Below are positions 1-62,750 of a stretch of 64,000 nucleotides of DNA, in pieces. The DNA is from an uncultured Serinicoccus sp. (GTDB lineage Bacteria; Actinomycetota; Actinomycetes; Actinomycetales; Dermatophilaceae), in NCBI RefSeq assembly GCF_947500995.1, contig NZ_CANMUA010000001.1, positions 186,001 through 250,000 of the forward strand, in the 5' to 3' direction. The position numbers were made by a program, and so were the translations under genes. How positions within the stretch are numbered: position 1 is the stretch's first letter; each line of letters starts with the position of its first letter. The notes under the pieces were generated by a model that saw only the letters and a list, made by a program, of their open reading frames with translations, did no database searches and was not told the DNA's origin.

Positions 1-623
1 TTCTCCGGGTCCTTCTCGATCTTGCTCCGCAGCCGCTGGACGTGCACGTTGACCAGCCGGGTGTCCCCCGCGTGGCGGTAGCCCCAGACCTGCTCGAGCA
101 GCGACTCCCGGTCGAAGACCTGGGTGGGCTTGCTCGCCAGCGCCACGAGCAGGTCGAACTCGAGCGGGGTGAGCGGGATCTGCTCGCCGGCCCGGGTGAC
201 CTCGTGCCCGGCGACGTCGATCTGGACGTCACCCACCTGCAGCCGGGTGTCGTCGCCGGACTCGGTGCGGCGCAGCCGCGCCCGGATCCGGGCCAGCAGC
301 TCCTGCGGCTTGAACGGCTTGACGACGTAGTCGTCCGCACCGGCCTCCAGACCCAGGACGACGTCCTTGGTGTCCGTGCGGGCGGTGAGCATGACGACCG
401 GGATCCCGGACTCCGCCCGCAGCTCACGGCATACCTCGATCCCGTCCTTGGACGGCAGCATGACGTCCAGGAGGACGAGGTCGGGACGGAACTCGCGGAA
501 CATCGGCATCGCCCGTCCCCCGTCGGCGCAGCTGGCGACCTCGTAGCCCTCCTTGCGCAGCACGATGCCCAGCATCTCGGCCAGGGCCTGGTCGTCGTCG
601 ACCACGAGTACTCGAGCGCTCAC
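1..623 (-). CDS. mtrA: Two-component response regulator MtrA (3' end cut by window edge)
   Basis: OmpR/PhoB-family response regulator. The visible 207 residues hold a receiver domain (acidic pair DDD near residue 9, phospho-acceptor Asp in LLDVMLPSKDG near residue 53, conserved Lys in VVKPF) and most of a winged-helix DNA-binding domain (LTPLEFDLL, then VWGYRHAGDTRLVNVHVQRLR); the C-terminal residues lie beyond base 1. It is called MtrA because it directly follows ahcY on the same strand, as in the sahH-mtrA-mtrB-lpqB cluster of actinobacteria. In that family MtrA works with the kinase MtrB and controls cell-wall and division genes; the partner kinase would lie left of this window. The GTG start at 623 has an AGGAGG-type ribosome site a few bases upstream, so it is probably co-transcribed with ahcY. 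Confidence 0.9.
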   Translation of the reverse strand, partial: MSARVLVVDDDQALAEMLGIVLRKEGYEVASCADGGRAMPMFREFRPDLVLLDVMLPSKDGIEVCRELRAESGIPVVMLTARTDTKDVVLGLEAGADDYVVKPFKPQELLARIRARLRRTESGDDTRLQVGDVQIDVAGHEVTRAGEQIPLTPLEFDLLVALASKPTQVFDRESLLEQVWGYRHAGDTRLVNVHVQRLRSKIEKDPE

Positions 624-657
624 GGGTTCCTCCTGCGTCTGTGCCCCTGCACCAGCA

Positions 658-2121
658 TCAGTAGCGGTAGTGCTCCGGCTTGAACGGGCCGGCCACGTCG
701 ACCCCGAGATAGCTCGCCTGCTCCTTGGTCAGCTCGGTCAGGTCGGCCGCGACCGAGGCCAGGTGCAGCCGCGCGACCTCCTCGTCGAGCTCCTTGCGCA
801 GCGTGTGGACGCCGAGCGGGTAGGCCTCGAGCCGGGTGTGCAGCTCGATCTGGGCCAGCACCTGGTTGGCGAAGCTCGCCGACATGACGAAGCTCGGGTG
901 CCCGGTGGCGTTGCCGAGGTTGAGCAGGCGGCCCTCGGACAGCACGATGATCGAGCGACCGTCGGTGAAGGTCCACTCGTGCACCTGCGGCTTGATCTCC
1001 ACCCGCTGCACGTCCGGCACCCGCGCGAGACCGGCCATGTCGATCTCGTTGTCGAAGTGCCCGATGTTGCCCAGCACGGCCTTGTCCTTCATCGCCGCCA
1101 TGTGCTGCGGGGTGACGACGTCCTTGCACCCGGTCGCGGTGATGACGAAGTCCGCCGAGCCGATGACGTCCTCCAGCCGGGCGACCTGGTAGCCGTCCAT
1201 GGCGGCCTGCAGGGCACAGATGGGGTCGATCTCGGTGACGATCACCCGGGCACCCTGACCGCGCAAGGCCTCCGCGCAGCCCTTGCCGACGTCGCCGTAA
1301 CCGCAGACCACCGCGACCTTGCCCCCGATGAGCACGTCGGTGGCGCGGTTGATGCCGTCGATGAGGCTGTGCCGGCAGCCGTAGGTGTTGTCGAACTTGC
1401 TCTTGGTGACCGCGTCGTTGACGTTGATCGCCGGGAAGAGCAGCTCCCCGGCCTCGTGCAGCTGGTAGAGCCGGTGCACCCCGGTGGTCGTCTCCTCCGA
1501 CACCCCGCGGATGCCCTCGGCGACCCGGGTCCAGCGCTGCGGGTCATGCGCCAACGAGGCGCGCACGGTCTCCAGGATGACCTTCCACTCCTCCGGGTCC
1601 TCCTGCTGCGGGGTGGGCACGGCCCCCTGCCGCTCCCACTCCCGACCCTTGAGCACCAGCAGCGTGGCGTCGCCCCCGTCGTCGAGGATGAGGGTGGGGC
1701 CGGCCCCGTCCGGCCAGAGCATGATCTGGGTCGTGCACCACCAGTACTCCGGCAGGGTCTCGCCCTTCCAGGCGAAGACGGGGACGCCCTGGGGCTCCTC
1801 GGGGCTGCCCTGCGGGCCCACGACCACGGCGGCGGCCGCCTCGTCCTGGGTGGAGAAGATGTTGCAGGAGGCCCAGCGCACCTGCGCGCCGAGCGCGACG
1901 AGGGTCTCGATGAGCACGGCGGTCTGGACGGTCATGTGCAGCGACCCGGCGATCCGGGCGCCGGCCAGCGGCTGCTCGTGGGCGAAGCGTTCGCGCAGCG
2001 CCATGAGGCCCGGCATCTCGTGCTCGGCCAGCCGGATCTGGTGCCGCCCCTGCTCGGCGAGCCCCAGGTCGCGGACCCGGTGCTCCAGCGCGGTGCCGGT
2101 CGTCGTCATCGTGTCGGGCAT
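658..2121 (-). CDS. ahcY: Adenosylhomocysteinase (SAH hydrolase)
   Basis: Cytosolic NAD-dependent enzyme that splits S-adenosylhomocysteine into adenosine and homocysteine, relieving methyltransferase product inhibition and feeding methionine recycling. The 487-residue protein carries the NAD-binding motif GYGDVGKG at residues 274-281, the conserved block [11 protein letters not shown] near 235, the early [11 protein letters not shown] block, and the diagnostic C-terminus KPEHYRY, which in the family completes the cofactor site of the neighbouring subunit. Length fits the bacterial type with the internal insertion. The ATG at 2121 has no ribosome site; instead a TAGCAT hexamer ends 6 nt before it, overlapping the stop codon of the mycothione reductase gene upstream. 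It therefore probably starts its own leaderless message, with mtrA downstream. Confidence 0.97.
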
Positions 2122-2127
2122 GGGGTC

Positions 2128-2133
2128 ATGCTA
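2128..2133 (-). promoter_or_regulatory. -10 element of leaderless ahcY promoter
   Basis: TAGCAT on the minus strand, 6 nt before the ATG of ahcY with no ribosome site between. It coincides with the TAG stop codon of the preceding mycothione reductase gene. Confidence 0.6.
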
Positions 2134-3561
2134 CGTGGCGTCCCCGACGTCCTCCGGCACGTGCAGGCCCAGCAGCGCGTTCTCCAGCACCTCGGACAGC
2201 GCCGGGTGGATCCAGTACTGGCCCCGCGCCAGCTCGTGGGCGGTCACCGAGGGGCCCATGCTCAGCGCCTGGATGGCGGGCTGGATGAGGGTGCTGGCCA
2301 TCGGGCCCATCGCGTGCACCCCGAGCAGTCGCCCGGTCGCGGCGTCGCCCACCGCCTTGAGCAGCCCGGTGGTGTCCTCCATCGCCCAGCCGTACGCGGT
2401 GTCCCCGAAGCGCTGCACCTTGGTGGTCACGGCATACCCCTCGTCCTGCGCCTGGGCCTCGGTGAGGCCGACGCAGGCCATCTGCGGGTGGGTGAAGACG
2501 GCGGCCGGCACGAACCGGTGGTCGAAGGCGCGCAGGTCGTCGGGGTGGGCGAGGTTGTGGGCGACCACCCGGGCCTCGTGGTTGGCGACGTGCTTGAGCT
2601 GGTACTCGGAGGAGGCGTCGCCCAGCGACCACACGCCGGCGACGCCGGTGCGGCCGAAGCGGTCCACGACGACCCGCCCGTCGTCGTGGGTGGCCACCCC
2701 GGTGTGCTCCAGCCCCAGGTCGTGGGTGTGCGGCGTGCGTCCCGTCGCCACGAGGAGGACCTCCCCGCTCGCCGTCGAGCCGTCAGACAGGGTGAGCTCG
2801 ATCTCCGCCTCCCCCTGCTCGAGCGAGACGGCCTCGACCCCGGTCCGGACGTCCCACTGGGCCCGTGCGAGGTCGGTCCACGCGGCGGCCAGCTCCGCGT
2901 CGAGCGCGCGCAGGAGCCCGTCGCCGCGGGTGACGATCCGCACCGCCACGCCGAGGGCGGAGAAGATGTGGGCGAACTCCGCGGCGATGTAACCTCCGCC
3001 GAGGATGACCAGGCTGGCGGGCAGCTCGGGCAGGCGCATGACCGTGTCGGAGGTGTGGAAGGGCACCCCCGAGTCCAGCACGACGTCGGGGACGTGGGGC
3101 CGCGAGCCGGTCGCGATGACGACCTGGTCGCCCGTGATGCGGTGCACCGAGCCCAGCTCGTGGTGGCCTCCGGGACGGGTGATCTCGATCTCCAGCTCGT
3201 GGTCGGAGACGAAGCGGGCGTGGCCGAGGTAGGCGTCGGTGTTGCCCCCGTCGACGCGGTAGTCCCGGCCACCGTCGCTGATCGGGTCGATCCGGCCGAA
3301 GACCCGGTCCCGGATGTCGGTCCACCGCACCTGGTCCAGGCTCGCGTCGATGCCGAAGCGCGCCGCGTCGCGGATGGTCGAGGCCACCTCCGCGGCATAC
3401 ACGAACATCTTGGTGGGGATGCACCCGACGTTGAGGCAGGTGCCACCGAAGACCCCGCCCTCGACGACGGCGATCCGCCGCCCCTCCAGCTCGGGAGTGA
3501 CCAGCGAGTTGCCGGAGCCGGTGCCGATGATGACGAGGTCGTAGTGGGTGGTGTCGCTCAC
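2131..3561 (-). CDS. mtr: Mycothione reductase
   Basis: FAD- and NADPH-dependent pyridine nucleotide-disulfide oxidoreductase, 476 residues. In actinobacteria this family reduces mycothiol disulfide to mycothiol, the glutathione substitute. Visible: FAD-binding IIGTGSGN at residues 11-18, the redox-active pair in GGTCLNVGCIPTK (Cys42 and Cys47), a second Rossmann motif ILGGGYIAAE, and a C-terminal dimerisation domain ending with the catalytic His-Glu region WIHPALSEV. GSGNSL at the N-terminus and the overall pattern favour mycothione reductase over dihydrolipoamide dehydrogenase or mercuric reductase. The GTG at 3561 is chosen because a TACGCT hexamer ends 6 nt upstream; the frame stays open for 64 further codons, but that stretch lies beyond the likely transcription start. 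Confidence 0.9.
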   Translation of the reverse strand: MSDTTHYDLVIIGTGSGNSLVTPELEGRRIAVVEGGVFGGTCLNVGCIPTKMFVYAAEVASTIRDAARFGIDASLDQVRWTDIRDRVFGRIDPISDGGRDYRVDGGNTDAYLGHARFVSDHELEIEITRPGGHHELGSVHRITGDQVVIATGSRPHVPDVVLDSGVPFHTSDTVMRLPELPASLVILGGGYIAAEFAHIFSALGVAVRIVTRGDGLLRALDAELAAAWTDLARAQWDVRTGVEAVSLEQGEAEIELTLSDGSTASGEVLLVATGRTPHTHDLGLEHTGVATHDDGRVVVDRFGRTGVAGVWSLGDASSEYQLKHVANHEARVVAHNLAHPDDLRAFDHRFVPAAVFTHPQMACVGLTEAQAQDEGYAVTTKVQRFGDTAYGWAMEDTTGLLKAVGDAATGRLLGVHAMGPMASTLIQPAIQALSMGPSVTAHELARGQYWIHPALSEVLENALLGLHVPEDVGDAT

Positions 3562-5629: not shown

Positions 5630-6865
5630 TCAGCGCTGCAGCTCCTCCAGGACGGCCTGCAACCCGTGCCACACCTCGACGAAGGTGGTGGACAGCGGCG
5701 AGAGCCCCAGCCGCAGCCCGTCCGGGGAGCGGAAGTCGGGGATCACCCCGCGGTCCCAGAGCCGGGGGTATGCCTCCTCGAAGTCCGGGTGGCGCAGCGT
5801 CAGGTGACCGCCGCGCCGCTCGTGCGCACGCGGGCTCGCGACGACGACGCCCACATCGGCGGGCCAGGACTCCACCACGGACCAGGCGAAGTCGGTGAGG
5901 CGCAGCGACTTGCGCCGCACCTCGTCGATCCCGGCCTCGGCGAGCAGCTGCGCACCCAGGCGGACCGGCACCATGCCGATGATCGGCGGGGTGCCACTCA
6001 CCAGGGCCCGGATGCCCGCGGCGGGCTGGTAGCCCTGCTCCATACGGAAGGGGTCGCGACGGCCCATCCATCCCTGCACCGGTTGCTGCAGCGTCGGGAG
6101 GTCGTGGTGGCGGCGCGCGAGGTAGGCGTGGGCCGGCGCCCCCGGCCCCCCGCACAGGTACTTGTAGTCACAGCCCACGGCCGCGTCCCAGCCCCACTCG
6201 TCGGCCCGCACCGGGACCGAGCCGGCGCTGTGGCTGGTGTCCCACAGGACGAGGGCTCCGGCGTCGTGCACCACCCCCGTGACGCGGGCCGCCTCGGCGA
6301 CGAAACCGGAGCGGTAGGCCACGTGCGAGAGCAGGACCACGCCGGTGCTCTCGCCCACGACGTCCGCGACCTGCTCCGGGGTCACCCCCGCGGCCGGGTC
6401 GGCGTCGATCCACCGCAGGACGAGTCCGCGCTCGGCCGCGACGCCCTCCGCGACGTAGCGGTCGGTCGGGAAGTTGTCGGTGTCGATCACGAGCTCACGA
6501 CGTGCCGGGTCCGTCGCGAGCTGGTGGTCCACGAGCGCCCGCAGCACCTTGTAGAGCAGGACGGTGGTCGAGTCGGCCACCACCGTCTGGCCGGGGGCCG
6601 CGCCCAGGGCGGCAGCGCCGACGAGGTCGCCGACCTCCTCCGGCCAGCGCATCCACCCCTCGTCCCAGGACCGGATGAGCCGGGTGCCCCACTCCTCGCG
6701 GACGAAGCGCTCCATCTCCTGCGCGGCCCCGGCGACGGGGCGGCCCAGCGAGTTCCCGTCGAGGTAGGCCACCACGCCGTCCGCCCGCTCGAAGCGGGAC
6801 ACGAAGCGCGCCAGCGGGTCCTGGGCGTCGAGCTCCTGCGCGCGCTGCAGGTCGGGGTCAGCCAC
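5630..6865 (-). CDS. kynU: Kynureninase
   Basis: PLP enzyme that cleaves kynurenine to anthranilate and alanine (or 3-hydroxykynurenine to 3-hydroxyanthranilate) in oxidative tryptophan breakdown. The 411-residue protein shows the kynureninase-type N-terminus AYLDGNSLGRP, the phosphate-site region DSTTVLLYK, FPTDRYVAEG, WDTSHSAGS, and the Schiff-base lysine in GCDYKYLCGGPG (about Lys235). The GTG at 6865 is preferred because GGAGG lies 8 nt upstream, whereas the in-frame GTG at 6874 abuts that ribosome site. The start overlaps the end of kynA by 8 nt, so the two are translated together. No kynurenine formamidase (kynB) gene is seen in the window, although kynA product needs one. Confidence 0.95.
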   Translation of the reverse strand: MADPDLQRAQELDAQDPLARFVSRFERADGVVAYLDGNSLGRPVAGAAQEMERFVREEWGTRLIRSWDEGWMRWPEEVGDLVGAAALGAAPGQTVVADSTTVLLYKVLRALVDHQLATDPARRELVIDTDNFPTDRYVAEGVAAERGLVLRWIDADPAAGVTPEQVADVVGESTGVVLLSHVAYRSGFVAEAARVTGVVHDAGALVLWDTSHSAGSVPVRADEWGWDAAVGCDYKYLCGGPGAPAHAYLARRHHDLPTLQQPVQGWMGRRDPFRMEQGYQPAAGIRALVSGTPPIIGMVPVRLGAQLLAEAGIDEVRRKSLRLTDFAWSVVESWPADVGVVVASPRAHERRGGHLTLRHPDFEEAYPRLWDRGVIPDFRSPDGLRLGLSPLSTTFVEVWHGLQAVLEELQR

Positions 6866-9108: not shown

Positions 9109-9324
9109 TCAGCCGGTGACCGTGACGACGTCGGCGTCGTCGACGAGCAGGACGGGTATGCCGTCGCGCCAGGGGTAGCGCCGACGCCGCCCCGGACCGT
9201 CGCAGTCCTCGGCGCACTCGAGCACGGGCGCGCCGTGCTCGTCGGTCCGGTCGAGGAGCTCGTGCCGCCCCACCGGGCAGCGCAGGATGCTGCGCACCCA
9301 GGGGTCGTACTCCGGTCGCGCCAT
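9109..9324 (-). CDS. Trm112/YcaR-like small protein
   Basis: A 71-residue protein with ILRCPVGRHELLDR at the N-terminus, an internal Cys pair in LECAEDCDG, and the family ending YPWRDGIPVLLVDDA. Trm112-like proteins in eukaryotes and archaea are small activators of methyltransferases; bacterial homologues are often encoded among cell-envelope sugar genes and are poorly characterised. AGGAGG lies just before the ATG, and only one base separates it from the manB stop, so it belongs to the manB operon. The Gly-Ile-Pro codons are GGC ATA CCC, an unusual ATA that belongs to the dispersed octamer. Confidence 0.8.
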   Translation of the reverse strand: MARPEYDPWVRSILRCPVGRHELLDRTDEHGAPVLECAEDCDGPGRRRRYPWRDGIPVLLVDDADVVTVTG

Positions 9325-13267: not shown

Positions 13268-16200
13268 GGGACCTCCTCCGGCTCGTCCTCGGTCCGTCCG
13301 ACGGGCAGGGCGAGGAACGCGGTCACGGCGCCGAGCACCAGCGCCAGGACGAGCGCCCTCAGGCCCGGTCGCTCGAGATCGACCTCCACGACGTGCTGTC
13401 CCTGGGGCAGGGGGACCCGGTGGGGGTCCTCCACCGCGACCTCCCGGCCGTCCACACGGACCTGGGCCACCTGCGCCCACCCGGACGGCTCGGCGACCGC
13501 CAGGACTGCCCCGGCGGGCACGTCGACCCGGCCCGAGGCTGCGCCGTGCGGGCCGTCGGCGGGCAGCACGGCCACGCCCCGGCCCGCCTCGTCCAGCACC
13601 CGGGTGCGCCCGGGATCACCGTCGACCATGCGCCACAGGACCGAGCCGCTAGGGCTGGACACCCGCCCGAGCCCCGAGATCCGGTCCAGCTGGGTGACGG
13701 CGGGATGGCTGTCGTCGGACTCCAGCAGGACGTAGCCGACCCCGAGGTCGAGCAGCTCGTCCTGCGCCTGGTCGGCCGGTGCGCCGCCGACGAGGGACTC
13801 GACGACCCCTTCCACCACCACCTGCTGCGGCCGGGGGGTGGGGGTACCGAGCTCGACGGTCCGGTCGCGCTGCAGACGTCCCGGCTCCGGCTCGGCACCC
13901 TGCAGGTCGACGACGAGGCCCGCACCGTCCGGACGCAGCACGAGGGTGCGGACCGCACCCGGGCCGTACGCCTCCTCGACGGCGACAGCGGGCAGCGGCT
14001 GCCCGGCCACCTCCAGGGCTGGTCGCTGGGCGGTCCACGGCGTCGACAACGCCGTGGCGAGCGGGGCGGCGAGCACCACGACCGCGGCCAGCGTCGCCGG
14101 GCGGGTCCACCGGCCGGCACCACCCGGTCGCAGCAGGTGCTCCACGGTGGTGCCGGCGGCCAGCAGCAGCGCAGCTCCCGCCAGCGACAGCGTCGGCCCC
14201 GTCCACAGGGTGACCAGCAGCCCCTCCTCGGGATGCCCCGGCGCCATGACCCCCAGCGCGGTCCGCGCCGCCAGCTGGGCCGCGCCGACAGCGGCGAGGG
14301 CGCCCAGCACCAGCGCGGCGACCCGGCGCCCGTCGCGGCCGGGCAGGAGCAGCCCACCGAGGGCCGCGAGCCACCAGGTCGCGGCGAGCCACAGGGGCAG
14401 GCCCGGCGCCCCGGCGTCGGCAGGCTGCAGCAGGAGGAGCTGCCAGAGCGCGGAGGGCGACGGGAGGTCGAGCGTGGCGGTGGTGGCACCGGCACCCCCC
14501 AGCAGCCGCAGCGGGTGCGCGGCCAGGGCACCCCACCAGGGCAGCAGGAGCAGCCACGGCAGGACCAGCACGACGGCCCCGCGCCAGCGGGCTCCCCCGC
14601 GGCCGAGCACGAGGAGGAGCACGCCCGCGGCGGTGGCGACGACGAGGACCGACGGCACCCAGGTCGAGGCCGCGGCCAGCCCCAGGGCGGTCGCGAAGGC
14701 GGCGGCGGCCCGCCGGGTGCCCCCGCCCCGGTGCGCGACCACCAGCAGCCCGGCGACGAGCAGGGGCGCGAGCACGTGCACGACGACCGGGCCCACCCGA
14801 CCCTGGCCGGTGGCCGCGGCGAGCGGAGCGGCGACGCCCCAGCCGAGGGCGAGGGACGCGCGGGCCCAGCGCCGGGCGGTGCTGCGTCGCAGCGCCAGGT
14901 ATGCCGTGACCACGCTGAGCAGGGGGGCGAGCACGAGGAGCCAGGCCAGGGCAGGTCCGGCGGTGTCCCGCCCGGCTCCCGGCAGCAGGCCCGTCACGGC
15001 GGCCAGGGCGGCCAGGGGCAGCAGCCAGGTCTGGGGCGGGTCGTCGTGCCCGAGACCGCCCCCACGCCACCCGTCGACGGCGGAGGACCACAGCGCTGCG
15101 CCGTCGCCGAGCCCGGGACCGAGCTCCCCGCCGACCCAGCCGGTGCCGGCCGGGTCGAGCCCGGCCCAGAGCCCCCGGGCCCACCAGGCGGTGAGCAGCA
15201 GGGTGAGGGCGCCGGTGGCGACCAGCGGCCAGCTCCACCACCGCGCGGCGCGCCCCTCCCCCGCGAGCTCGTCGAACTCCTCCGACACCGGGCCGCTGTC
15301 GGCGGACCGGGTGGAGGCACGCCGGCGCCCCGACCCCCGGGCCCGGCGCGAGCGGGGGTCCAGCGCCTCTCCCACCGTCTCCAGGGTCGCCCCCCACCCG
15401 GCGTCGCGCGGCTCGTGCAGGCCGGCCAGGTCACGAGGGGCGACGGTCCGCGCCCGGCAGAACCGACGTCGGGCTCCCCAGCCGCGGGCGGGAGCCAGCA
15501 CGGCCCGGACGTCCGCCCACTCCCCGGCGGCCTCGGCAGGACGCTTGACGAGCAGGAGGAGCAGGGCCGCGGCCAGGCTCGTGAGCAGCACCCCGAGCGA
15601 GCGCCACGGCGCCGCCCACGCCGGGCCACGGGCGAGGGCGAGCTGTCGGGTGCGGATGCGGGTGCGCAGGGGGTCCTCCACCCCGAGGCCGGCGTCGTCC
15701 AGGCGGACCACGGCGTCGGGGGCGACGACCACGCGATGACCGGCCAGGTGCGCCCGCCACCCGACGTCGAGACCGTCGACCCCGTCGGCGGCGAAGGCGC
15801 GGTCCAGCCCGCCGATCGCCTCCAGCAGGTCCCGGTTTACCAGGGACCCGCTCAACGGGACCCCGAGCACGTCCTGCCGCAGGTCCAGCTGGCCCTGGTC
15901 GACGAGGGCCCGCACCGTCGGGTCCACGACGCGCCCGGCGGGGGTGAGGTGGTGGCCCATCGAGCGGAGCAACCGGGGCTGGTCGGTCCGGACCAGCTTG
16001 GGCCCGACCACCCCGACGCGGCTGCTGCGTCGAGACGCCCCGACCAGGGCGGCGAGCGCCCCGGGCTCGGGGACCGCACCGGGGGTGAGGAACCAGACCC
16101 AGCGCCCCGGGCCGGAGGGCAGCCGGCCCAGCGCGGCGTCCACCTGCGCCTCCCGGTCGGTCCCGACGTGCGCGAGGAGGGTCAGCCCGATCCCCAGCTC

Positions 16201-16446
16201 GCCGGCCAGCGCCTGCAGCTCGGCGGCCCGCTCCCCCTCCGGGTCCGGGTGGACGACGAGCACCCCCGCCGGTGTCCGCTCCTGCCGGGCCACCGCCCGC
16301 AGCGTCCGGGCATACCCCTCGTCGAGGCCCTCCACGCCCGGGCCGGCAGCCGGCTCCGCTGCACCCAGCAGGACGACCCGTACGTCGTCCGTCGCCGCAC
16401 GGGCCCGGCGGGCGCCGGGCGGGGGCGGGACAGGTGTCGGGGACAT
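13264..16446 (-). CDS. GT2 family glycosyltransferase with large membrane domain
   Basis: A 1060-residue protein. Residues about 20-290 form a GT2-like domain: VRVVLLGAAEPA, WVWFLTPGAVPEPGALAALVG, VGVVGPKLV, and GLDRAFAADGVDGLDVGWRAHLAGHRVVVAPDAVVRL. A hydrophobic segment near 315 is followed by a soluble linker, then about ten or more transmembrane stretches between roughly 420 and 850, and a C-terminal extracytoplasmic beta-rich region with a last membrane helix (LVLALVLGAVTAFLALPVG). It probably transfers sugars to an envelope polysaccharide at the membrane. The ATG at 16446 lacks a well-placed ribosome site, and upstream in-frame starts would run into whiB, so the start is uncertain. It is coupled to DUF5719. 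Confidence 0.8.
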   Translation of the reverse strand: MSPTPVPPPPGARRARAATDDVRVVLLGAAEPAAGPGVEGLDEGYARTLRAVARQERTPAGVLVVHPDPEGERAAELQALAGELGIGLTLLAHVGTDREAQVDAALGRLPSGPGRWVWFLTPGAVPEPGALAALVGASRRSSRVGVVGPKLVRTDQPRLLRSMGHHLTPAGRVVDPTVRALVDQGQLDLRQDVLGVPLSGSLVNRDLLEAIGGLDRAFAADGVDGLDVGWRAHLAGHRVVVAPDAVVRLDDAGLGVEDPLRTRIRTRQLALARGPAWAAPWRSLGVLLTSLAAALLLLLVKRPAEAAGEWADVRAVLAPARGWGARRRFCRARTVAPRDLAGLHEPRDAGWGATLETVGEALDPRSRRARGSGRRRASTRSADSGPVSEEFDELAGEGRAARWWSWPLVATGALTLLLTAWWARGLWAGLDPAGTGWVGGELGPGLGDGAALWSSAVDGWRGGGLGHDDPPQTWLLPLAALAAVTGLLPGAGRDTAGPALAWLLVLAPLLSVVTAYLALRRSTARRWARASLALGWGVAAPLAAATGQGRVGPVVVHVLAPLLVAGLLVVAHRGGGTRRAAAAFATALGLAAASTWVPSVLVVATAAGVLLLVLGRGGARWRGAVVLVLPWLLLLPWWGALAAHPLRLLGGAGATTATLDLPSPSALWQLLLLQPADAGAPGLPLWLAATWWLAALGGLLLPGRDGRRVAALVLGALAAVGAAQLAARTALGVMAPGHPEEGLLVTLWTGPTLSLAGAALLLAAGTTVEHLLRPGGAGRWTRPATLAAVVVLAAPLATALSTPWTAQRPALEVAGQPLPAVAVEEAYGPGAVRTLVLRPDGAGLVVDLQGAEPEPGRLQRDRTVELGTPTPRPQQVVVEGVVESLVGGAPADQAQDELLDLGVGYVLLESDDSHPAVTQLDRISGLGRVSSPSGSVLWRMVDGDPGRTRVLDEAGRGVAVLPADGPHGAASGRVDVPAGAVLAVAEPSGWAQVAQVRVDGREVAVEDPHRVPLPQGQHVVEVDLERPGLRALVLALVLGAVTAFLALPVGRTEDEPEEVP

Positions 16447-20712: not shown

Positions 20713-21510
20713 ATGGACAAGGTCGTCGCCTCCGCCGCGCAGGCGCTCGAGGGGCTCACCGACGGGATGACCGTCGCGGTGGGCGGCTTCGGGCTCTCGG
20801 GCATCCCCACCGTGCTCATCCACCAGGCGCTCGAGCAGGGCACCACCGACCTCGAGGTCGTCTCCAACAACTGCGGTGTCGACGGCGCCGGCCTGGGGCT
20901 GCTGCTGTCCCGGGGCCGCATCCGCCGCGTCATCGCCTCCTACGTCGGGGAGAACAAGGAGTTCGCGCGCCAGTACCTCTCCGGCGAGCTCGAGGTCGAG
21001 CTGACCCCGCAGGGCACCCTGGCGGAGAAGCTGCGCGCCGGCGGCGCCGGCATACCGGCCTTCTTCACCCCCACCGGCGTCGGCTCGCAGGTCTCCGAGG
21101 GCGGTATGCCGTGGCTCTACGACAGCGACGGCGTCGTGGTCAAGGAGTCCCCGGCCAAGGAGACCCGCGGGTTCGAGGTACGCGGGCACACCCGCGACCA
21201 CGTGCTGGAGCACGCCATCTTCGCCGACTTCGCCCTCGTCCGGGCCGCCCGAGGCGACCGGCACGGCAACCTCGTCTTCAACCAGTCCGCCCGCAACTTC
21301 AACCCGTTGTGCGCCATGTCCGCGCAGGTCGCCGTCGCCGAGGTCGAGGAGCTGGTCGAGCCGGGCGAGATCGACCCGGACGACGTCCACCTCCCGGGCA
21401 TCTACGTCCAGCGCGTGCTGCCCCTCACCGCGCAGCAGGCCGGTGACAAGGACATCGAGAAGCGGACCACGCGTCCGCGTCCCCCCGCCGCGACCGACCA
21501 GGAGGCCTGA
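20713..21510 (+). CDS. scoA: 3-oxoacid CoA-transferase subunit A
   Basis: Alpha subunit (265 residues) of a succinyl-CoA:3-ketoacid-type CoA transferase, used in ketone-body or acetoacetate metabolism. Motifs: DGMTVAVGGFGLSGIPTVLI near residue 18, the family-I signature region VVSNNCGVDGAGLGLLL near 49, and GRIRRVIASYVGENKEFARQYLSGELEVELTPQGTLAEKLRAGGAGIPAFFTPTGVGS. The beta subunit follows after 3 nt. GIPAF is written GGC ATA CCG and GGMPW with GGT ATG CC, two copies of the dispersed octamer only 54 bp apart. Confidence 0.95.
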   Translation: MDKVVASAAQALEGLTDGMTVAVGGFGLSGIPTVLIHQALEQGTTDLEVVSNNCGVDGAGLGLLLSRGRIRRVIASYVGENKEFARQYLSGELEVELTPQGTLAEKLRAGGAGIPAFFTPTGVGSQVSEGGMPWLYDSDGVVVKESPAKETRGFEVRGHTRDHVLEHAIFADFALVRAARGDRHGNLVFNQSARNFNPLCAMSAQVAVAEVEELVEPGEIDPDDVHLPGIYVQRVLPLTAQQAGDKDIEKRTTRPRPPAATDQEA

Positions 21511-38345: not shown

Positions 38346-39155
38346 TCAGCCGGACGGGTCCGGACGGGTGGCGACCGCGAAGACCCGCCGGAACGGCAGC
38401 ACCACCCCCGCCTCGGTGCGGGGGTATGCCTCCCGCAGCGCCGCGCGGAGCTCGTCGGCGAAGGCCTCGCGCAGGTCCGGCGGCAGGGCCTGCAGGGTGG
38501 GGCGGGCGCCCGTGGCGCTCACCCAGGTGAACACCGGGTCGGGGTCCTGCCCCGCGGGGTCGAGGACGTGCAGGTAGGTGGTCTCCCAGGCGTCCACCTC
38601 GCACCCCGCGCCGGCCAGCACCCGGAGGTAGTCGACCGGGTCGTGCGCGGCCGGGGTCGGCACCCCGGCGAGGTGCGCGGCATACCGCGGCCGCGCCGCG
38701 ATCTCGCGGCGCCGGGTGTGGCTGGGCTCGCCCATGTTCCCCGGCACCGTCATCGCGAGGACCCCTCCGGGGCGCAGCCGCCCGACCAGCTCCGGCAGCA
38801 GGGCGAGGTGCCCGGGGACCCACTGCAGGGTGGCGGTCGTCACCAGCAGGTCGACCTCCCCCGGACCCGCGCCGCCGCGGGCCCAGTCGACGAGGTCGCC
38901 CACCTCCGCCCGGGCCCTGCCCCCTCCGGCCGTCTCCCGCGCCGCGGCCACCATCTCCGGCGAGGAGTCCAGGCCGAGCACGTCGGCGCCCGGCCACCGG
39001 TCCGCGAGCCACCGCAGCCCGTGGCCGGGTCCGCAGCCCAGGTCGACGACGTGTCGCGGCTCGAGCCGGGGCACCCGGGCCATGAGCTCGACGAACGGCC
39101 GGTCCCGCTCGGCGGCGTACCGCCGGTAGTGGCCAGGGTCCCAGCTAGTGCTCAC
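38346..39155 (-). CDS. tam: Trans-aconitate 2-methyltransferase-like SAM methyltransferase
   Basis: A 269-residue class I methyltransferase with SWDPGHYRRYAAERDRPFVELMARVP at the start, SAM motif VVDLGCGPGHGLRWLADRWPGADVLGLDSSPEMVAAAR at 36-72, and LLVTTATLQWVPGH near 104, matching Tam. In its family it methylates trans-aconitate, detoxifying an inhibitor of aconitase. It overlaps the upstream membrane protein gene by 11 nt. Confidence 0.88.
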   Translation of the reverse strand: MSTSWDPGHYRRYAAERDRPFVELMARVPRLEPRHVVDLGCGPGHGLRWLADRWPGADVLGLDSSPEMVAAARETAGGGRARAEVGDLVDWARGGAGPGEVDLLVTTATLQWVPGHLALLPELVGRLRPGGVLAMTVPGNMGEPSHTRRREIAARPRYAAHLAGVPTPAAHDPVDYLRVLAGAGCEVDAWETTYLHVLDPAGQDPDPVFTWVSATGARPTLQALPPDLREAFADELRAALREAYPRTEAGVVLPFRRVFAVATRPDPSG

Positions 39156-41922: not shown

Positions 41923-42512
41923 GCGGCCGGCCGCAGGCCCCGCGGCGGACCACCCGCCGGCTCGTGCTCCGCGGGTTCGTCGAGGCCGACCGGGAGCCGT
42001 TCGCCGCGATGAACGCCGACCCCGAGGTGACGCGCTACCTGCAGGGCCCGATGAGCCGCGAGCGCTCGGACGCCTTCGTCGACCGCATCGACGCCTGCTG
42101 GTCCGGGCGGGGCTACGGGCTGTGGGCGCTGGAACGGCGCGACACCGGCGCGTTCCTCGGCTACACCGGGCTGTGGCCCGCGGACTTCCTGCCCTCGGGG
42201 CCCGCCGTCGAGGTGGGGTGGCGGCTGGCCCGGTCGGCCTGGGGCCACGGGTTCGCCACCGAGGCGGCCACCGAGGCGCTGCGTCTGGGCTTCACCGAGG
42301 TCGGGCTGGCGGAGATCGTCTCGTTCACCCCGGCGGTCAACACCGCCTCGCTGCGGGTCATGGGCCGGATCGGGCTCCGGCGCGACCCGGCCCGGGACTT
42401 CGACCACCCCCGGGTGGACGCGACGGCATACCCCGAGCTCGTGCGGCACCTCGTCCACGCCCTCGACGGCCAGGCGTGGCGGGATCACGCCGCCGGCGCC
42501 GGCCGGTCGTGA
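41919..42512 (+). CDS. GNAT family N-acetyltransferase (RimJ/RimL-like)
   Basis: A 197-residue acetyltransferase of the RimJ/RimL class: RLVLRGFVEADREPFAAMNADPEVTRYLQGPMSRERSDAFVDRI at the start, GYGLWALERRDTGAFLGYTGLW, then EVGWRLARSAWGHGFATEAATEALRLGFTEVGLAEIVSFTPAVNTASLRVMGRIGL, which includes the acetyl-CoA-binding GxGxAT-like loop (WGHGFATEA). The acceptor is unknown. The GTG start lies inside the DUF885 stop (GTGA), so they share a transcript. Confidence 0.9.
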   Translation: MSGRPQAPRRTTRRLVLRGFVEADREPFAAMNADPEVTRYLQGPMSRERSDAFVDRIDACWSGRGYGLWALERRDTGAFLGYTGLWPADFLPSGPAVEVGWRLARSAWGHGFATEAATEALRLGFTEVGLAEIVSFTPAVNTASLRVMGRIGLRRDPARDFDHPRVDATAYPELVRHLVHALDGQAWRDHAAGAGRS

Positions 42513-44639: not shown

Positions 44640-45170
44640 CTAGATCGTCTTGAACTCGTCGAAGGGCTCCCGGCAGGTCCGGCAGCGGCGCAGCGCCTTG
44701 CACGCCGTGGAGCCGAACCGGGCGACCTCCTCGGTGTCGTCGGACCCGCACTGCGGGCAGCTGACGACCCGGAGCTGGAGCCCCACGGGCACCGGCCCGG
44801 GAGGGGCCGCGTGCGCCCGCTCCCCGGTGGGCGGCGCGATCCCGAACCGGCGCAGGCTGGCCCTGCCCTGCTCGCTCATCCAGTCGGTCGTCCAGGCGGG
44901 CGAGAGCCGGGTGACGACCTCGACCGGTATGCCGTGGGCCCGGCCGGCCGCCACGACCGCGTCGGCCATGGCGTGCATGGCCGGGCAGCCGGAGTAGGTG
45001 GGCGTGATGGTGACGCGCATCCCGGGATGCCCGTCGACCTCGGCCGTCTCGACCCGGCGGATGACCCCGAGGTCGTCGATGGTGATGACCGGGATCTCCG
45101 GGTCGGGGACGGCGCGCATGTCCTGCTCCACCCGGGCGACCAGGTCGGGGTCCAGCACGGCGACCCTCAC
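44640..45170 (-). CDS. paaD: Phenylacetyl-CoA epoxidase maturation protein PaaD
   Basis: A 176-residue PaaD/MIP18-family protein: VRVAVLDPDLVARVEQDMRAVPDPEIPVITIDDLGVIR at the start (PDPEIP typical of the family), TPTYSGCPAMHAMADAV near 70, and a C-terminal zinc-ribbon-like tail with CPQCG and CRTC pairs. In E. coli PaaD is needed for full epoxidase activity, apparently in iron-sulfur assembly. The GTG overlaps the paaC stop as GTGA. Confidence 0.93.
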   Translation of the reverse strand: MRVAVLDPDLVARVEQDMRAVPDPEIPVITIDDLGVIRRVETAEVDGHPGMRVTITPTYSGCPAMHAMADAVVAAGRAHGIPVEVVTRLSPAWTTDWMSEQGRASLRRFGIAPPTGERAHAAPPGPVPVGLQLRVVSCPQCGSDDTEEVARFGSTACKALRRCRTCREPFDEFKTI

Positions 45171-49253: not shown

Positions 49254-49326
49254 GTTCACCTGTCGTTCACTTCTACGACGTCTTGGGGTACGCTAGATGA
49301 ACAGAAGATGAACGGCATACCGTTCG
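49254..49326 (+). promoter_or_regulatory. Promoter with helically phased repeats before the 50-residue gene
   Basis: TTCACT (49266-49271) and TACGCT (49289-49294), 17 bp apart, form a plausible promoter. Upstream, GTTCAC occurs twice 11 bp apart (49254 and 49265, the second overlapping the -35). Downstream, GATGAAC occurs twice 11 bp apart (around 49297 and 49308). The two arrays are inverted relative to each other. A perfect palindrome GAACGG-CATA-CCGTTC (49311-49326) follows and contains a copy of the dispersed octamer. One-turn spacing suggests cooperative binding by a regulator on one DNA face. Confidence 0.6.
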
Positions 49327-52621: not shown

Positions 52622-53617
52622 ATGCCCCGCCTGCGCACCGTCTCCCCCGCCTCGCCCGGCTGGACGCGCCGCCGCGTGGGCCGCGGCTTCACCTACGTCG
52701 ACGCGCAGGGCACCCGGCTGGGCGCCGAGGACGTGGCCCGGGTCAAGGCCCTGGTCATCCCCCCGGCGTGGACGGACGTGTGGATCTGCCCCCACCCCAC
52801 CGGTCACCTCCAGGCCGTGGGGACCGACGACGCCGGTCGGCGGCAGTACCTCTACCACCCCGCGTGGCGCGAGCAGCGGGACAAGCTCAAGTTCGAGCGG
52901 GTCCTGGGGGCGGCCGCCCGGCTCCCCGCGGCACGGCGCCGGATCATGCGGGACCTGGCGCTGGAGGGTATGCCGGTGCAGCGCGCCGAGGCGGTCGCCG
53001 TGCGCCTGATCGACCTGGGCTACTTCCGCATCGGCAGCGACGTCTACACCGACGCGCACGGCAGCTTCGGCCTCACGACGCTGGAGCGGCGGCACGTGCG
53101 GGCCCGCGGTGACGTCCTGCTCTTCTCCTTCGTCGGCAAGTCGGGGGTGGAGCACCGCATCCAGATCGACGACCGCGACGTCATCGCCGCACTGGACCGG
53201 ATGCGGCGGCGGCGCTCGGGCGACCGGCTGCTGGCGTACCAGGAGGGGCGGCGCTGGATCGACCTGGACGCCGCCGCGGTCAACGCCTACCTGGGCGACC
53301 TGCTGGGCGGGGAGCTGACGGCCAAGGACTTCCGCACCTGGCACGCCACAGTCCTCGCCGCGACCTCCCTGGCGCTGACCGAGGAGCCCGGCGACACCCC
53401 GGCCTCACGACGCCGGGCGGTGCGGGCCGCGGTCGAGGAGGTGTCGGCATACCTCGGCAACACCCCGACGATCGCCCGCAACTCCTACATCGACCCCCGG
53501 GTCATCGACCTCTACGAGGCGGGGACGACGATCGGCGAGGCCGCCCGGCGGCGCCACCGCTCGCCCGCGACGAGGACGCGCGACCTGGAGCGTGCCGTGC
53601 TAGAGATGCTGTCATGA
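52622..53617 (+). CDS. Type IB DNA topoisomerase (poxvirus-like bacterial form)
   Basis: A 331-residue TopIB. The N-terminal domain has GFTYVDAQGTRL and VIPPAWTDVWICPHPTGHLQAVGTDDAGRRQYLYHPAWREQRDKLKF; the catalytic domain has RLIDLGYFRIGSDVYTDAHGSFGLTTLERRHV with the Arg nucleophile-helper, KDFRTWHATVLAA with Arg and His, and the active-site Tyr in ARNSYIDPRV (about Tyr289). It relaxes supercoils through a 3'-phosphotyrosine. Such enzymes are patchy among bacteria. The PIG-L gene overlaps its end by 4 nt. Confidence 0.93.
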   Translation: MPRLRTVSPASPGWTRRRVGRGFTYVDAQGTRLGAEDVARVKALVIPPAWTDVWICPHPTGHLQAVGTDDAGRRQYLYHPAWREQRDKLKFERVLGAAARLPAARRRIMRDLALEGMPVQRAEAVAVRLIDLGYFRIGSDVYTDAHGSFGLTTLERRHVRARGDVLLFSFVGKSGVEHRIQIDDRDVIAALDRMRRRRSGDRLLAYQEGRRWIDLDAAAVNAYLGDLLGGELTAKDFRTWHATVLAATSLALTEEPGDTPASRRRAVRAAVEEVSAYLGNTPTIARNSYIDPRVIDLYEAGTTIGEAARRRHRSPATRTRDLERAVLEMLS

Positions 53618-54454: not shown

Positions 54455-55291
54455 TCAGGTGCGGCGCTGGCAGTTGCCGCACCAGAAGAGGTTGCGGCCG
54501 GCGACGACCTTGTGCCGCACGACCGAGCCGCAGCGCAGGCAGGGCAGCCCGGTGCGCTGGTAGACCGCGAACTCGCGCGGCACCGCAGGCTCCTCCCCCC
54601 GGGCCAGGGCGGCCTCGGTGTCCTCCAGCACGTCGTCGAGCGTGATGATGGTGCCCGTGCGCACCCCGAACGGCATGAGCCGCACGAGGTCGTCCCAGAT
54701 GAGCTGCCACGACGCCCGCTTGAGGGTCTTCCCTGGTCGCAGCGGGTGCAGCCGGTGCCGCCACAGCACCTCGCACCGGTAGATGTTGCCGACCCCCGCG
54801 AGGACCGTCTGGTCCATGAGCAGCTCGGCCACGGTCTTGCCCGAGCGCGTGATGGTGCGGTATGCCGCGTCCGGGTCGTTGAGGTCGCTCACCGGCTGCA
54901 GCGGGTCGGGTCCCTGGCGCAGGACCAGCCGGTCGACCTCCGCCTCGTCCACGACCTGGCAGGCCATGGGCCCGCGCAGGTCGGCGACGTGCGCGTCGGA
55001 GAGCAGCCGCAGCCGCACCTGGCCGGTCGCCGGGGGCTCGTGGCCGGCCGGGTCGACGGGCAGCACGAACCACTTGCCGATGAGCCCGAGGTGCACGTAG
55101 AGCGTCCGCCCACCGGCGAAGTCGACGAAGAGCAGCTTGCCGTGCGCCCAGGAGCGCTCCAGCACGGACCCGTCGAGCCGGGCGGCCCCCTCGGCGAAGC
55201 GTCCCTGGGGACTGCTCACGGCGGGCACGGTGCCGCCGAAGGCGTCGTCGAGCGAGCGCGCCAGGCGGTGCAGCGTGTGACCCTCGGGCAT
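54455..55291 (-). CDS. nei: Fpg/Nei family DNA glycosylase (endonuclease VIII-like)
   Basis: A 278-residue base-excision repair enzyme. The mature N-terminus PEGHTL with Pro2 nucleophile and Glu3 is that of Nei rather than Fpg (PELPE). Also HGKLLFVDFAGGRTLYVHLGLIGKW with the conserved Lys near 52, the helix-two-turn-helix VLAGVGNIYRCEVLWRHRLHP near 165, and a C-terminal zinc finger CLRCG...CGNCQ. It removes oxidised pyrimidines. No ribosome site is clear at the ATG; GAGCAT lies 6 nt upstream. Confidence 0.93.
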   Translation of the reverse strand: MPEGHTLHRLARSLDDAFGGTVPAVSSPQGRFAEGAARLDGSVLERSWAHGKLLFVDFAGGRTLYVHLGLIGKWFVLPVDPAGHEPPATGQVRLRLLSDAHVADLRGPMACQVVDEAEVDRLVLRQGPDPLQPVSDLNDPDAAYRTITRSGKTVAELLMDQTVLAGVGNIYRCEVLWRHRLHPLRPGKTLKRASWQLIWDDLVRLMPFGVRTGTIITLDDVLEDTEAALARGEEPAVPREFAVYQRTGLPCLRCGSVVRHKVVAGRNLFWCGNCQRRT

Positions 55292-56053: not shown

Positions 56054-58846
<2,793 letters not shown>

Positions 58847-58859: not shown

Positions 58860-59393
58860 CGGCAACCGCGGCGGACCCTCCGCACCGATCCCGGGCTCGT
58901 CGACGTCCTCGCGCAGGGCCAGCTCGAACCAGTCGCACCCGTGCCACCGGCCGAACTTGCGGCCCACCCGGGTGAAGGCCCCCACCCGGCGGAAGCCGAG
59001 GGAGCGGTGCAACGCGGCGCTGGCCGGGTTGGGCGGGGTCGTGCCGGCCACCGCCGTGCCGTAGCCGAGCTCGCGCAGCCGGTCGAGCAGGGCGGCGTAG
59101 AGCGGGCGCCCGAGCCCCTGCCCCGCGGCCTCCTGCGCGAGGTAGATGCTCGTCTCGGCGGTGCGCGCGTAGGCGCTGCGGGCGCGGAAGCCGCCGGCGT
59201 AGGCATACCCCAGGACGACGCCGTCGCGCTCGGTGACCAGCCAGGCGTGGGCGCGCTGCGCGGCGGCGATGCGGCGGGCGAGCTCCTCGGCCCCCGGCGG
59301 CTCGGTCTCGAAGGTGACGGAGGTGCCCGTGACGTAGGGCGCGTAGATCGCCGCGCACCGCCCGGCGTCCTCGGGGCGGGCGTCCCGGATCAC
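58857..59393 (-). CDS. GNAT acetyltransferase (phosphinothricin acetyltransferase-like)
   Basis: A 178-residue [46 protein letters not shown] at the start is typical of the Pat/Bar/MnaT branch, which acetylates phosphinothricin or methionine sulfone-like amino acids. The acetyl-CoA loop is [27 protein letters not shown], followed by [37 protein letters not shown]. The GTG overlaps the mrdA stop as GTGA, so it is transcribed with the mre cluster. Confidence 0.9.
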
Positions 59394-61462: not shown

Positions 61463-61944
61463 GCCCACCCCCGCTGCGTCATCCAGCGCTCCAGCCGCAT
61501 GACGACCGGCAGCACGAGGACGGCCACCAGCATCGTCACGGCCAGGGTCCAGGCCAGCTCGGCCGGCAGGGCCCGCCCGACGCCCGCGGCCGCCGCCACG
61601 CCCCGGACGCCCAGCACCAGCGCCGCCGCCAGACCGGTCGCCACCCAGGGGAGCACCGGGGACAGGACGAGCTGGCGGCGGACCGCCCCCAGCCCCAGAC
61701 CGACGGCGGCGTAGACGAGGGCGCCCGCGCCCAGCGGAGCCGCCCCGGGGGGCACCACGTCGACGAGCCAGCCCCCCGCCAGCCCGACCAGGAGACCGAC
61801 CGGGGGTGGGTGCAGCAGCGCCACGCCCGCCACGACGAGCAGGACCAGGTCCGGCCGGGCCAGGCCGGCAGGCCAGGCGCTGGGCAGCAGGACCGCGGCC
61901 AGCAGGAGCACCCCGCGCACGAGCGGGCCCAGCAGGCGGATCAT
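61459..61944 (-). CDS. mreD: Rod shape-determining protein MreD
   Basis: A 161-residue integral membrane protein with about five hydrophobic helices, including LVRGVLLLAAVLLPSAW, DLVLLVVAGVALL and LAWTLAVTMLVAVLVLPVVMRLERWM. Sequence signature is weak, as usual for MreD; the call rests on size, topology and position between mreC and mrdA, joined by ATGA overlaps to both. Confidence 0.85.
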   Translation of the reverse strand: MIRLLGPLVRGVLLLAAVLLPSAWPAGLARPDLVLLVVAGVALLHPPPVGLLVGLAGGWLVDVVPPGAAPLGAGALVYAAVGLGLGAVRRQLVLSPVLPWVATGLAAALVLGVRGVAAAAGVGRALPAELAWTLAVTMLVAVLVLPVVMRLERWMTQRGWA

Positions 61945-62750
61945 CCGTCCTCCCTCAGGACGACCGCGACGAGGTCGAGGGTGTCGGTGTCCACGAAGGG
62001 CTCCACGACGGCCGTGCGCCCGAGCTGGCCGCGGTCCGGGTCGACGGAGACGACGGTCCCCAGGGGTATGCCGGCGGCGTAGGGGACGTCGTCCGGGCTG
62101 CCCAGCGTGCTCACCCGGTCGCCGACCTCGACCTGGGTGTCGCCCAGCGCGGTGAGCGTGAGCTGGCCGTGCCCGCGCGCCGGGAGGCCGGGCACCGGGT
62201 CCGCCTGGACGTCGCCGAGCGCCCCGTCCTGCCCGAAGCGCACGCCCACGACGACCTGCGGGTCCCCGAGCAGCAGGACGTCGGCGCTGGTCGGGGCCAC
62301 CCGCAGCACGCGGCCGGCGAGCCCCTCGACGGCGACGACGGTCTGGTCGGGCAGGACGCCGTCCTCGCTGCCCACGTCGACGGTGACCGTCCGCCCACCC
62401 ACCGGCGTGCTGCCGGACGCGACGGCGACCACCCGCGCCGGGAGCAGGGTCCGGTCCACCACGGCGGCGGTGCTGGAGCGGGCCAGCTCCTCCAGCTCGG
62501 TGGCGTCCCTCGCCCGGGCCCGCAACCGGTCCACCTCGGCGGCCAGCGCGTTGCGCTCCTCCGTGAGCTCGGCGACCCGGCCGTCGTCCCAGCCGGCGAG
62601 CACCCGCTGCGCGGGGGCCAGCGCGGCGGCCACGGCGGAGCGTGCGGGGGCGGCGAGACCGGGCCGGGCCAGGTCGACCACGAGCACCGCCGCGGTGAGG
62701 GCGACGAGCAGGAGCGCGAGGACGGTGGTGCGCGAGGGCATACCGGTCAC
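61941..62750 (-). CDS. mreC: Rod shape-determining protein MreC
   Basis: A 269-residue bitopic protein: one N-terminal helix (TVLALLLVALTAAVLVVDLARPG), a coiled coil (RVAELTEERNALAAEVDRLRARARDATELEEL, about 58-90), and a periplasmic beta-rich domain with GSEDGVLPDQTVVAVEGLAGRVLRVAPTSADVLLLGDP typical of MreC. GTG 62750 overlaps the mreB stop (GTGA); the in-frame ATG 62741 is a possible alternative start three codons later. The Gly-Met-Pro codons around it carry a copy of the dispersed octamer. Confidence 0.9.
   Translation of the reverse strand: MTGMPSRTTVLALLLVALTAAVLVVDLARPGLAAPARSAVAAALAPAQRVLAGWDDGRVAELTEERNALAAEVDRLRARARDATELEELARSSTAAVVDRTLLPARVVAVASGSTPVGGRTVTVDVGSEDGVLPDQTVVAVEGLAGRVLRVAPTSADVLLLGDPQVVVGVRFGQDGALGDVQADPVPGLPARGHGQLTLTALGDTQVEVGDRVSTLGSPDDVPYAAGIPLGTVVSVDPDRGQLGRTAVVEPFVDTDTLDLVAVVLREDG

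Follow-up and report, generated by a model that had tools for sequence, protein, structure and literature searches.

What maintains a single 8-base word at dozens of sites in a short stretch of actinobacterial DNA? A 64,000-nucleotide stretch from an uncultured Serinicoccus sp. (the window) carries GGCATACC, or its complement GGTATGCC, throughout its length. The first-pass annotation ascribed the word to selection or a mutational process acting on DNA itself, and named as options DNA uptake, methylation or repair at the word, and recognition by an undescribed protein. Action on the DNA itself is supported, since the word does not depend on codon use and its excess survives a Markov test. Among the options, an uptake sequence suits most of the features described below, and the word probably serves natural transformation as a DNA uptake sequence, which may be strand-polar.

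Abundance and form of the word

A recount of the window gave 29 exact copies (15 on the + strand and 14 on the - strand), identical to the hand count and including all exact positions named in it. In 100 dinucleotide shuffles the mean was 0.73 and the maximum 5, and none attained 29. The expectation is 1.59 copies under a third-order Markov model and 1.95 under independent bases, the latter agreeing with the earlier figure of about twice by chance. The earlier count of about 10 seven-base matches also holds, with 8 + 4 end matches falling short of the full word. The remark that nearly all ATA and TAT triplets belong to the word was overstated: 29 of the 63 such triplets in the window do, and 207 of the 593 in 464 kb. 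It stands in the narrower sense that 26 of 37 ATA codons in the 464 kb sit in GGC-ATA-CC.

The whole genome contains 663 + 752 = 1,415 copies, compared with 4 + 4 = 8 for the reversed pattern. In 464 kb of this genome (G000), 207 copies were found against a third-order expectation of 10.5, or 3.7 when the word was masked in training. The word and its overlapping forms have the top third-order z-scores among all 8-mers in the 464 kb, and the excess was thus not refuted by the Markov count; by the ratio of observed to expected, a 15-copy tandem-repeat word, AACCATTC, ranks above it.

The word is not a palindrome, GGCATACC being different from its complement. The core is GGCATACC, and the form favoured in the host genome is ACGGCATACC. 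Enrichment of near matches sits at the edges of the word in the 464 kb of G000, where one edge variant, AGCATACC, is missing rather than enriched (0 vs 3.3 expected). Word density in 10-kb bins correlates with GC content in G007 (rho 0.31) and shows no correlation in G000, G166 and G188; the lowest-GC tenth of the bins is word-poorer in all four genomes.

Genes, codons and intergenic DNA

The copies in the window are read in several ways. Ala-Tyr is encoded at 5767..5774, 14898..14905, 29484..29491, 33679..33686, 38423..38430, 54859..54866 and 57175..57182 (all -), and at 40884..40891, 42425..42432 and 53446..53453 (all +). Gly-Tyr-Ala is encoded at 2431..2438, 16309..16316, 22318..22325, 57536..57543 and 59202..59209 (all +), and Arg-Tyr-Ala at 23485..23492 (-) and 38679..38686 (+). 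The word is read as Gly-Ile-Pro at 9155..9162 (-, with an ATA codon), 21049..21056 (+), 27978..27985 (-), 44926..44933 (-) and 62065..62072 (-), as Gly-Met-Pro at 21103..21110 (-), 52967..52974 (-) and 62737..62744 (+), and as Val-Cys at 428..435 and 32439..32446 (both +). The copies at 21049 and 21103 form an opposite-orientation pair. Those at 39922..39929 and 49314..49321 (both +) lie outside or at the edge of gene calls. The peptide readings given earlier agree with independent gene calls at the named positions except 39922, which is called outside a gene.

All six reading frames are used, and orientation does not follow the direction of the genes (87 vs 77 copies in G000, 123 vs 127 in G007). 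The word imposes a rare codon: ATA is used in 26 of 55 Gly-Ile-Pro sequences in the 464 kb of G000, where only 37 of 3,912 Ile codons are ATA, and in 52 of 69 in G007. The use of six frames and the departure from codon preference rule out a codon or peptide effect, as the first-pass annotation had held. Intergenic density is 2.0-2.6 times that of coding DNA in 4 of 4 genomes (1.9 for G007 on earlier gene calls). Among 17 opposite pairs less than 60 bases apart, folded from G000, G166 and G188, the order is GGTATGCC...GGCATACC in 14, and many of the 17 are predicted to form strong hairpins.

Same-orientation copies exclude each other

In all four genomes tested, same-orientation copies are scarce within ~1 kb of each other and opposite-orientation copies are not. 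For these orientation-pair tests each genome contributed single stretches that do not overlap; an earlier locus count had included a Phycicoccus elongatus locus under two handles, L060 and L165, and one Serinicoccus pair in three relatives. The word has a more extreme share of same-orientation pairs than all control words but 1 of 161 in G166, the overlapping word GCGGCATA. When such pairs are simply counted, 3 of 67 controls in G007 and 6 of 102 controls in G188 have as few as the word. A one-per-gene rule as the cause was ruled out, the bias being alike within and between genes.

The exclusion rule is followed by variants with a mismatch at the edge but not by those with a mismatch in the core. 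The eight edge variants were selected as enriched in G000. Five core variants were usable, present at 1.3-2.2 times expectation in G000; a sixth is a palindrome and was skipped. Together, the exclusion and the contrast between edge and core variants indicate that the word acts directionally, with a reach of ~1 kb. The word had been set apart from polar signals on the grounds of its balanced orientations; the two orientations are indeed equally common, but the word nonetheless behaves as a directional element. A replication-polar signal is not favoured: inspection by eye of 25 G007 stretches, not anchored to the origin, showed no replication-linked switch of orientation.

Distribution and positional stability in the host family

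Of 186 genomes of the host family, 107 are word-rich, 66 word-poor and 13 between, with a maximum of 2,228 copies. The word-rich genomes together carry 44,468 forward and 44,576 reverse copies. Three genera contain word-rich as well as word-poor species, and comparable enrichment was found in no sampled genome outside the host family. No replacement word of comparable frequency was seen in 100 kb each of the word-poor genomes G023 and G031. A literal search for the word in the literature gave, among the matches listed, no title on a genomic word, a result of no evidential weight.

Comparison with relatives, proposed earlier as a check, was made position by position. Among 532 aligned comparisons of one word-rich genome with another, 71% have the word at exactly the same position, against 23% for the control (the comparisons are not independent), and the position is often shared across genera. 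Sets in which no site could be aligned, G065 among them, do not figure in these counts. Fewer positions are kept when the comparison starts from G007, where the word is densest: 15 of 33 positions to G000 (control 0.38), 2 of 8 to Ornithinimicrobium and 2 of 8 to G188. For L053, a set placed with the word-poor ones and containing a single word in 13.7 kb, 5 of 46 positions are kept. L160, a 20-kb stretch of G142, has no word though G142 has 347. The aligned non-word states are diverse and do not represent a single precursor.

Four near-empty stretches, which cover 5 of the 13 10-kb bins with at most one word, were annotated by scanning some of their genes. Two carry integrases and one metal-transport genes, and these three look like acquired DNA; the fourth consists of ordinary metabolic genes.

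A putative DNA uptake sequence

In the proposed mechanism, the word would label DNA, and a natural-transformation machinery would prefer DNA of its own kind. Word-bearing fragments would be taken up and recombined more often, words would accumulate, and they would be retained wherever the protein tolerates them. The process would then be DNA uptake, with a receptor and strand-polar entry. In single-membrane bacteria, which we take the word-bearing bacteria to be, ComEC lets a single strand of DNA directly into the cell, so a bound word may fix the direction of entry, and each copy would serve one strand over ~1 kb. Tentatively, then, the word may be a strand-polar uptake (or uptake-plus-recombination) signal of single-membrane Actinomycetota, the two orientations forming two independent layers on the genome; this more specific reading is somewhat less probable than uptake in general.

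Uptake sequences are listed as non-palindromic, unbiased in orientation, over-represented between genes and in part arranged as inverted repeats (PMC1939737). The USS of Haemophilus and other Pasteurellaceae is, according to the published descriptions, likewise a short non-palindromic word with >1,000 copies in balanced orientations, located mostly in genes yet denser outside them, and with mismatched forms over-represented (PMC1939737, PMC5217627). Inverted USS pairs are reported as terminator stems in H. influenzae (PMC5217627), to which the predicted hairpins correspond here. The USS differs in that its sequence and phylum are unrelated to those of the word, and in that uptake in H. influenzae is reported to be independent of orientation (PMC1939737), whereas same-orientation copies of the word exclude each other. 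The DUS of Neisseriaceae is alike in its genome-wide habit and is described as having dialects among relatives (PMC3630211). On the other strand the preferred form, GGTATGCCGT, has ATGCCGT in common with the DUS ATGCCGTCTGAA (PMC2346458); the overlap is probably due to chance. The receptor reported for the DUS is the minor pilin ComP (PMC3868556). Unlike in that system, no ComP-like receptor was found here in a search that covered ComEC, ComEA, PilM, the Tad ATPase and RcpC.

Genes examined for association with the word

The first-pass annotation had suggested looking for a gene family that co-occurs with the word; ComEC, PilM, the Tad ATPase, RcpC and RecC do not track it, and the first four were rejected as word-tracking families by their presence or absence across the 186 genomes. 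ComEC is present in 180 of the 186 and is as common in word-poor genomes; five word-rich genomes without a match are each incomplete or in >500 contigs. In the host genome, ComEA and ComEC adjoin degV and leuS. No column of ComEA or ComEC discriminated, by the criterion applied, between word-rich and word-poor loci (22 and 6, respectively, some without both proteins). PilM, a part of the type IV pilus, is present in 7 of 186 genomes and absent from G000; its lack of a match in the other 179 is a further difference from the USS, and its near absence a further difference from the DUS. The Tad-type ATPase occurs in 184 of 186 genomes and RcpC in 108 of 186. No receptor candidate thus emerged among ComEC, ComEA, PilM, the Tad ATPase and RcpC in the family genomes.

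Alternative explanations

The word could instead be a Chi-like recombination signal, at which an end-processing helicase-nuclease stops degradation in one orientation, with a copy per ~kb per strand. Chi sites of RecBCD are octamers with about a thousand copies and directional action, as is the word; directional action over ~1 kb, with the two orientations independent of each other, would be expected here too, and the scarcity of the word in some acquired DNA fits self-marking. However, RecC shows no association with the word, which argues against RecBCD-Chi: it is missing from 58 of 107 word-rich genomes and present in 37 of 66 word-poor ones (the 13 intermediate genomes are omitted from these counts, and congeneric genomes are not independent data points), and no word-rich genome has it in 19 of the 31 rich genera. 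The balance of orientations and an excess far beyond that usual for known Chi sites also set the word apart; no replication-linked switch was visible by eye in the G007 stretches. A Chi-like role is unlikely.

Similarly unlikely is a site of chromosome organisation or an epigenetic site like HIP1, bound chromosome-wide by a nucleoid protein or an orphan methyltransferase. HIP1 is itself linked to methyltransferases. A genome-wide word at fixed positions, patchy within one clade, would be accounted for, and HIP1 of cyanobacteria (GCGATCGC) is likewise a very frequent octamer, described as occurring at low frequency in exceptional clade members (PMC4390886). HIP1 is palindromic, however, and the word directional; exclusion confined to same-orientation copies is not explained by a simple binding site.

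A signal for transcription or replication (a terminator stem, a KOPS-like polar translocase site or a primer site) is very improbable. The strong predicted hairpins of some inverted pairs would fit, as would the convergent gaps, which are the word-richest gaps in G007, G166 and G188; but they are the poorest in G000, 163 of 207 G000 copies are intragenic, and orientation follows neither gene direction nor, visibly in G007, the replichores.

Least credible of all is a mutational process in which hypermutation or biased repair turns a single precursor into the word, for instance by deamination of methylated C in GGTACGCC: it would explain the rare codons and the occurrence on both strands, but the precursor is not depleted (GGCGTACC, 22 vs 11.6 expected), which rules out a methyl-C hotspot, the aligned non-word states are diverse, and same-orientation exclusion and long-term stability of position are left without a reason.

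Implications

We know of no uptake labels in Actinomycetota. Uptake sequences have been described in Pasteurellaceae and Neisseriaceae, two proteobacterial families (e.g. PMC7811141). The rule of distance and orientation constitutes a purely computational functional assay that tells working variants from dead ones, and known uptake sequences as well as Chi could be examined with it straight away. With rich and poor species within three genera, the patchy spread provides clean contrasts for a search for the receptor gene. If the word is indeed an uptake sequence, self-marking of DNA would have evolved again, independently, in Actinomycetota in which the usual type IV pilus is mostly missing.

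Excess of the word

The window holds all 29 copies of the word that the first-pass annotation had counted, every exact position that it named included, 15 on the forward and 14 on the reverse strand, against a shuffle mean of 0.73. The source genome (G000; 3.805 Mb in 45 contigs) holds 1,415 copies of the word and 8 of the reversed pattern. A third-order Markov model, suggested in that annotation as a check, left the excess standing: 207 words were counted in 464 kb of G000 and 10.5 were expected, or 3.7 when the model was trained with the word masked. The favoured form in G000 is ACGGCATACC; ACGGCATAC occurs 103 times in the same 464 kb versus 1.6 expected, and AC directly precedes the word in 499 of the 1,415 genome copies.

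For nearly all copies from other genomes and loci of the sample the preceding base was C: 28 of 28 in the family genome G166, 34 of 34 in Phycicoccus elongatus (one locus counted twice) and 27 of 27 in four Ornithinimicrobium loci. It was looser in G000 (165/207), in a second family genome, G007 (177/317), and in loci L046-L048 (9/17 in the Serinicoccus locus L048), which is a drift in the form of the word that is accepted. Short tandem arrays of 32-base period, with a unit around CAACCATTCrCGryGCyCGGTC, also occur in G000 outside the window (C1:57287-57319, 339914-340010, 418866-418962 and 419991-420119, in stretches L011, L022 and L026). AACCATTC, an 8-mer from these arrays with 15 copies, has the top observed/expected ratio of the 8-mers in the 464 kb; its 9-mer form was not found in the window, nor the 8-mer in 500 kb of G007.

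Independence from genes

Within the 464 kb, 163 of the 207 words lie inside genes, at 0.38 per kb versus 1.00 between genes; the intergenic density is 2.0-2.6 times the genic density in G000, G007, G166 and another family genome, G188. The claim that no codon or peptide effect is involved was borne out by the presence of the word in all six reading frames, by the lack of any relation between its orientation and gene direction (87 and 77 in G000, 123 and 127 in G007), and by the rare codons that the word imposes. ATA makes up 37 of the 3,912 Ile codons in G000, 26 of these 37 in GGC-ATA-CC. It encodes Ile in 26 of the 55 Gly-Ile-Pro tripeptides, with GGC preceding every time, and in 52 of 69 in G007; the less common codon GGT is used in 21 of the 31 Gly-Met-Pro tripeptides of G000.

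A directional spacing rule

Among word pairs less than 1 kb apart, those in the same orientation are too few but those in opposite orientation are not. Same-orientation pairs numbered 15 in G000, 59 in G007 and 18 in G166 versus orientation-shuffle means of 36.3, 88.0 and 32.7, and none of 2,000 shuffles in each genome was as low; in G188 there were 22 versus 34.8, with 2 of 2,000 shuffles as low. Summed over the four genomes in successive 200-base bins, same-orientation pairs rose from 13 through 19, 26 and 26 to 30, and opposite pairs were 68, 50, 56, 54 and 44, with 44.9 of each expected per bin. At 1-1.5 kb the sums were 111 same and 128 opposite (112 expected). The shortage is seen both inside and between genes.

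The same-orientation share is 0.21-0.33 for the word versus medians of 0.52-0.54 for control 8-mers of like frequency. Controls with a share as low were 0 of 256 in G000, 0 of 67 in G007, 0 of 102 in G188, and 1 of 161 in G166, namely GCGGCATA, which overlaps the word. Judged by the raw number of same-orientation pairs, the word stands out less in two genomes: equally low numbers were found for 3 of 67 controls in G007 and for 6 of 102 in G188. Eight variants with a mismatch at the edge of the word, paired with exact words, follow the rule, with 238 same and 471 opposite pairs below 1 kb, and 638 and 671 at 1.5-3 kb. Five variants with a mismatch in the core did not obey the rule (286 same and 321 opposite below 1 kb), and the rule therefore reports on word function without experiment. 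One copy renders a same-orientation copy superfluous for about 1 kb; an opposite copy is not made so.

Opposite pairs less than 60 bases apart in G000, G166 and G188 were ordered GGTATGCC...GGCATACC in 14 of 17 cases, and many of the 14 fold as near-perfect hairpins, much as terminators in H. influenzae are reported to be made from two opposed USS (PMC5217627). Hairpins do not explain the directional rule, because it depends on the absent same-orientation pairs.

Persistence and distribution

Comparison with relatives, also proposed in the first-pass annotation, showed that the word is kept in place. It was exact at the aligned site in 71% of 532 comparisons among word-rich genomes, which are not independent because loci and species recur among them, and control 8-mers of equal A+T content in 23% (alignments of 75-84% identity in the larger comparisons). 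Retention was 15/18 from G000 to G007. Starting from G007, in which words are densest among the genomes sampled at length, it was 15/33 to G000 (control 0.38), 2/8 to G188 and 2/8 to Ornithinimicrobium, as if younger copies are less well kept. No word was retained in the word-poor sets (G140, 0/52; pooled LeuS loci, 0/64; G023, 0/3; G031, 0/1), and 5/46 were in the low-density Ornithinimicrobium MAG L053.

Copies range from 6 to 2,228 in the 186 genomes of the family, which is probably Dermatophilaceae. With word-rich defined as at least 60 copies per Mb and at least 3 times the control, 107 genomes from 31 genera are rich, 66 are word-poor (<30 per Mb) and 13 are intermediate. Three genera (g1, g30 and g58) each contain rich and poor species; the word has therefore been lost or gained within genera. 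Outside the family, the highest count was 136 among 229 genomes of the order and 408, in a 7.5 Mb genome with a control count of 146, among 366 of the class (29 shared with the order sample). LeuS of G000 shares 96% identity with its counterparts in Serinicoccus chungangensis and an uncultured Serinicoccus, followed by those of S. kebangsaanensis (86%) and Ornithinimicrobium (76-78%); the window was taken as Serinicoccus-like.

In G000, G007, G166 and G188 alike, words are scarcer in the tenth of 10-kb bins with the lowest GC than in the other bins, most sharply in G007 (2.4 versus 6.8 words per bin). Some genes were scanned in four near-empty stretches, which make up 5 of the 13 bins that hold no more than one word. 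Of two low-GC islands of G007 (L150, C1:2900001-2920000; L146, C1:2180001-2200000), both word-poor, one has integrases of phage and IS type, the other P-type ATPase and cation-efflux genes; the G166 stretch has a serine integrase, and that of G188 ordinary metabolic genes.

Competence, recombination and the function of the word

ComEC and ComEA adjoin degV and leuS in G000. Across the 186 family genomes, ComEC was matched in 180, a Tad-type ATPase in 184, RcpC in 108 (68/107 word-rich, 32/66 word-poor) and the type IV pilus protein PilM in 7, by far the strongest match being full-length (G142, L126, C2:210707-211714; E 2.9e-38). None of these genes, nor RecC, follows the word in this set. Transformation of Micrococcus luteus, also an actinobacterium, is reported to depend on Flp (Tad-type) pili (PMC4322843, PMC6370729); a missing type IV pilus therefore does not preclude competence.

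Reading the word as an uptake sequence explains the magnitude of its excess, the equal orientations, disregard of frame, intergenic excess, hairpins, stable positions and patchy spread. The chief alternative is a Chi-like element, since that would likewise be directional, but it is improbable, weakened by the balanced orientations of the word and by RecC, the component examined, which is present in 89 of 186 genomes without association to the word (49/107 rich, 37/66 poor). An origin of the word by one kind of mutation was rejected: GGCGTACC, the likeliest precursor if there were a methyl-C hotspot, is not depleted (22 versus 11.6 expected), and the aligned bases in word-less relatives vary in many ways.

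No uptake sequence in Actinomycetota was reported in the titles and abstract openings of the matches listed from open-licence PubMed Central. The word consensus GGTATGCCGT and the Neisseria DUS ATGCCGTCTGAA, as reported (PMC2346458), have the 7-mer ATGCCGT in common, probably by chance, since the outer T of the word is merely a preference. The directional rule is a feature beyond what the uptake-sequence reading covers: orientation matters for this word, whereas uptake in H. influenzae is reportedly independent of USS orientation (PMC1939737). As an uptake sequence in a one-membrane bacterium, the word may be bound at the point where the entering strand is chosen, and binding there would render it directional.
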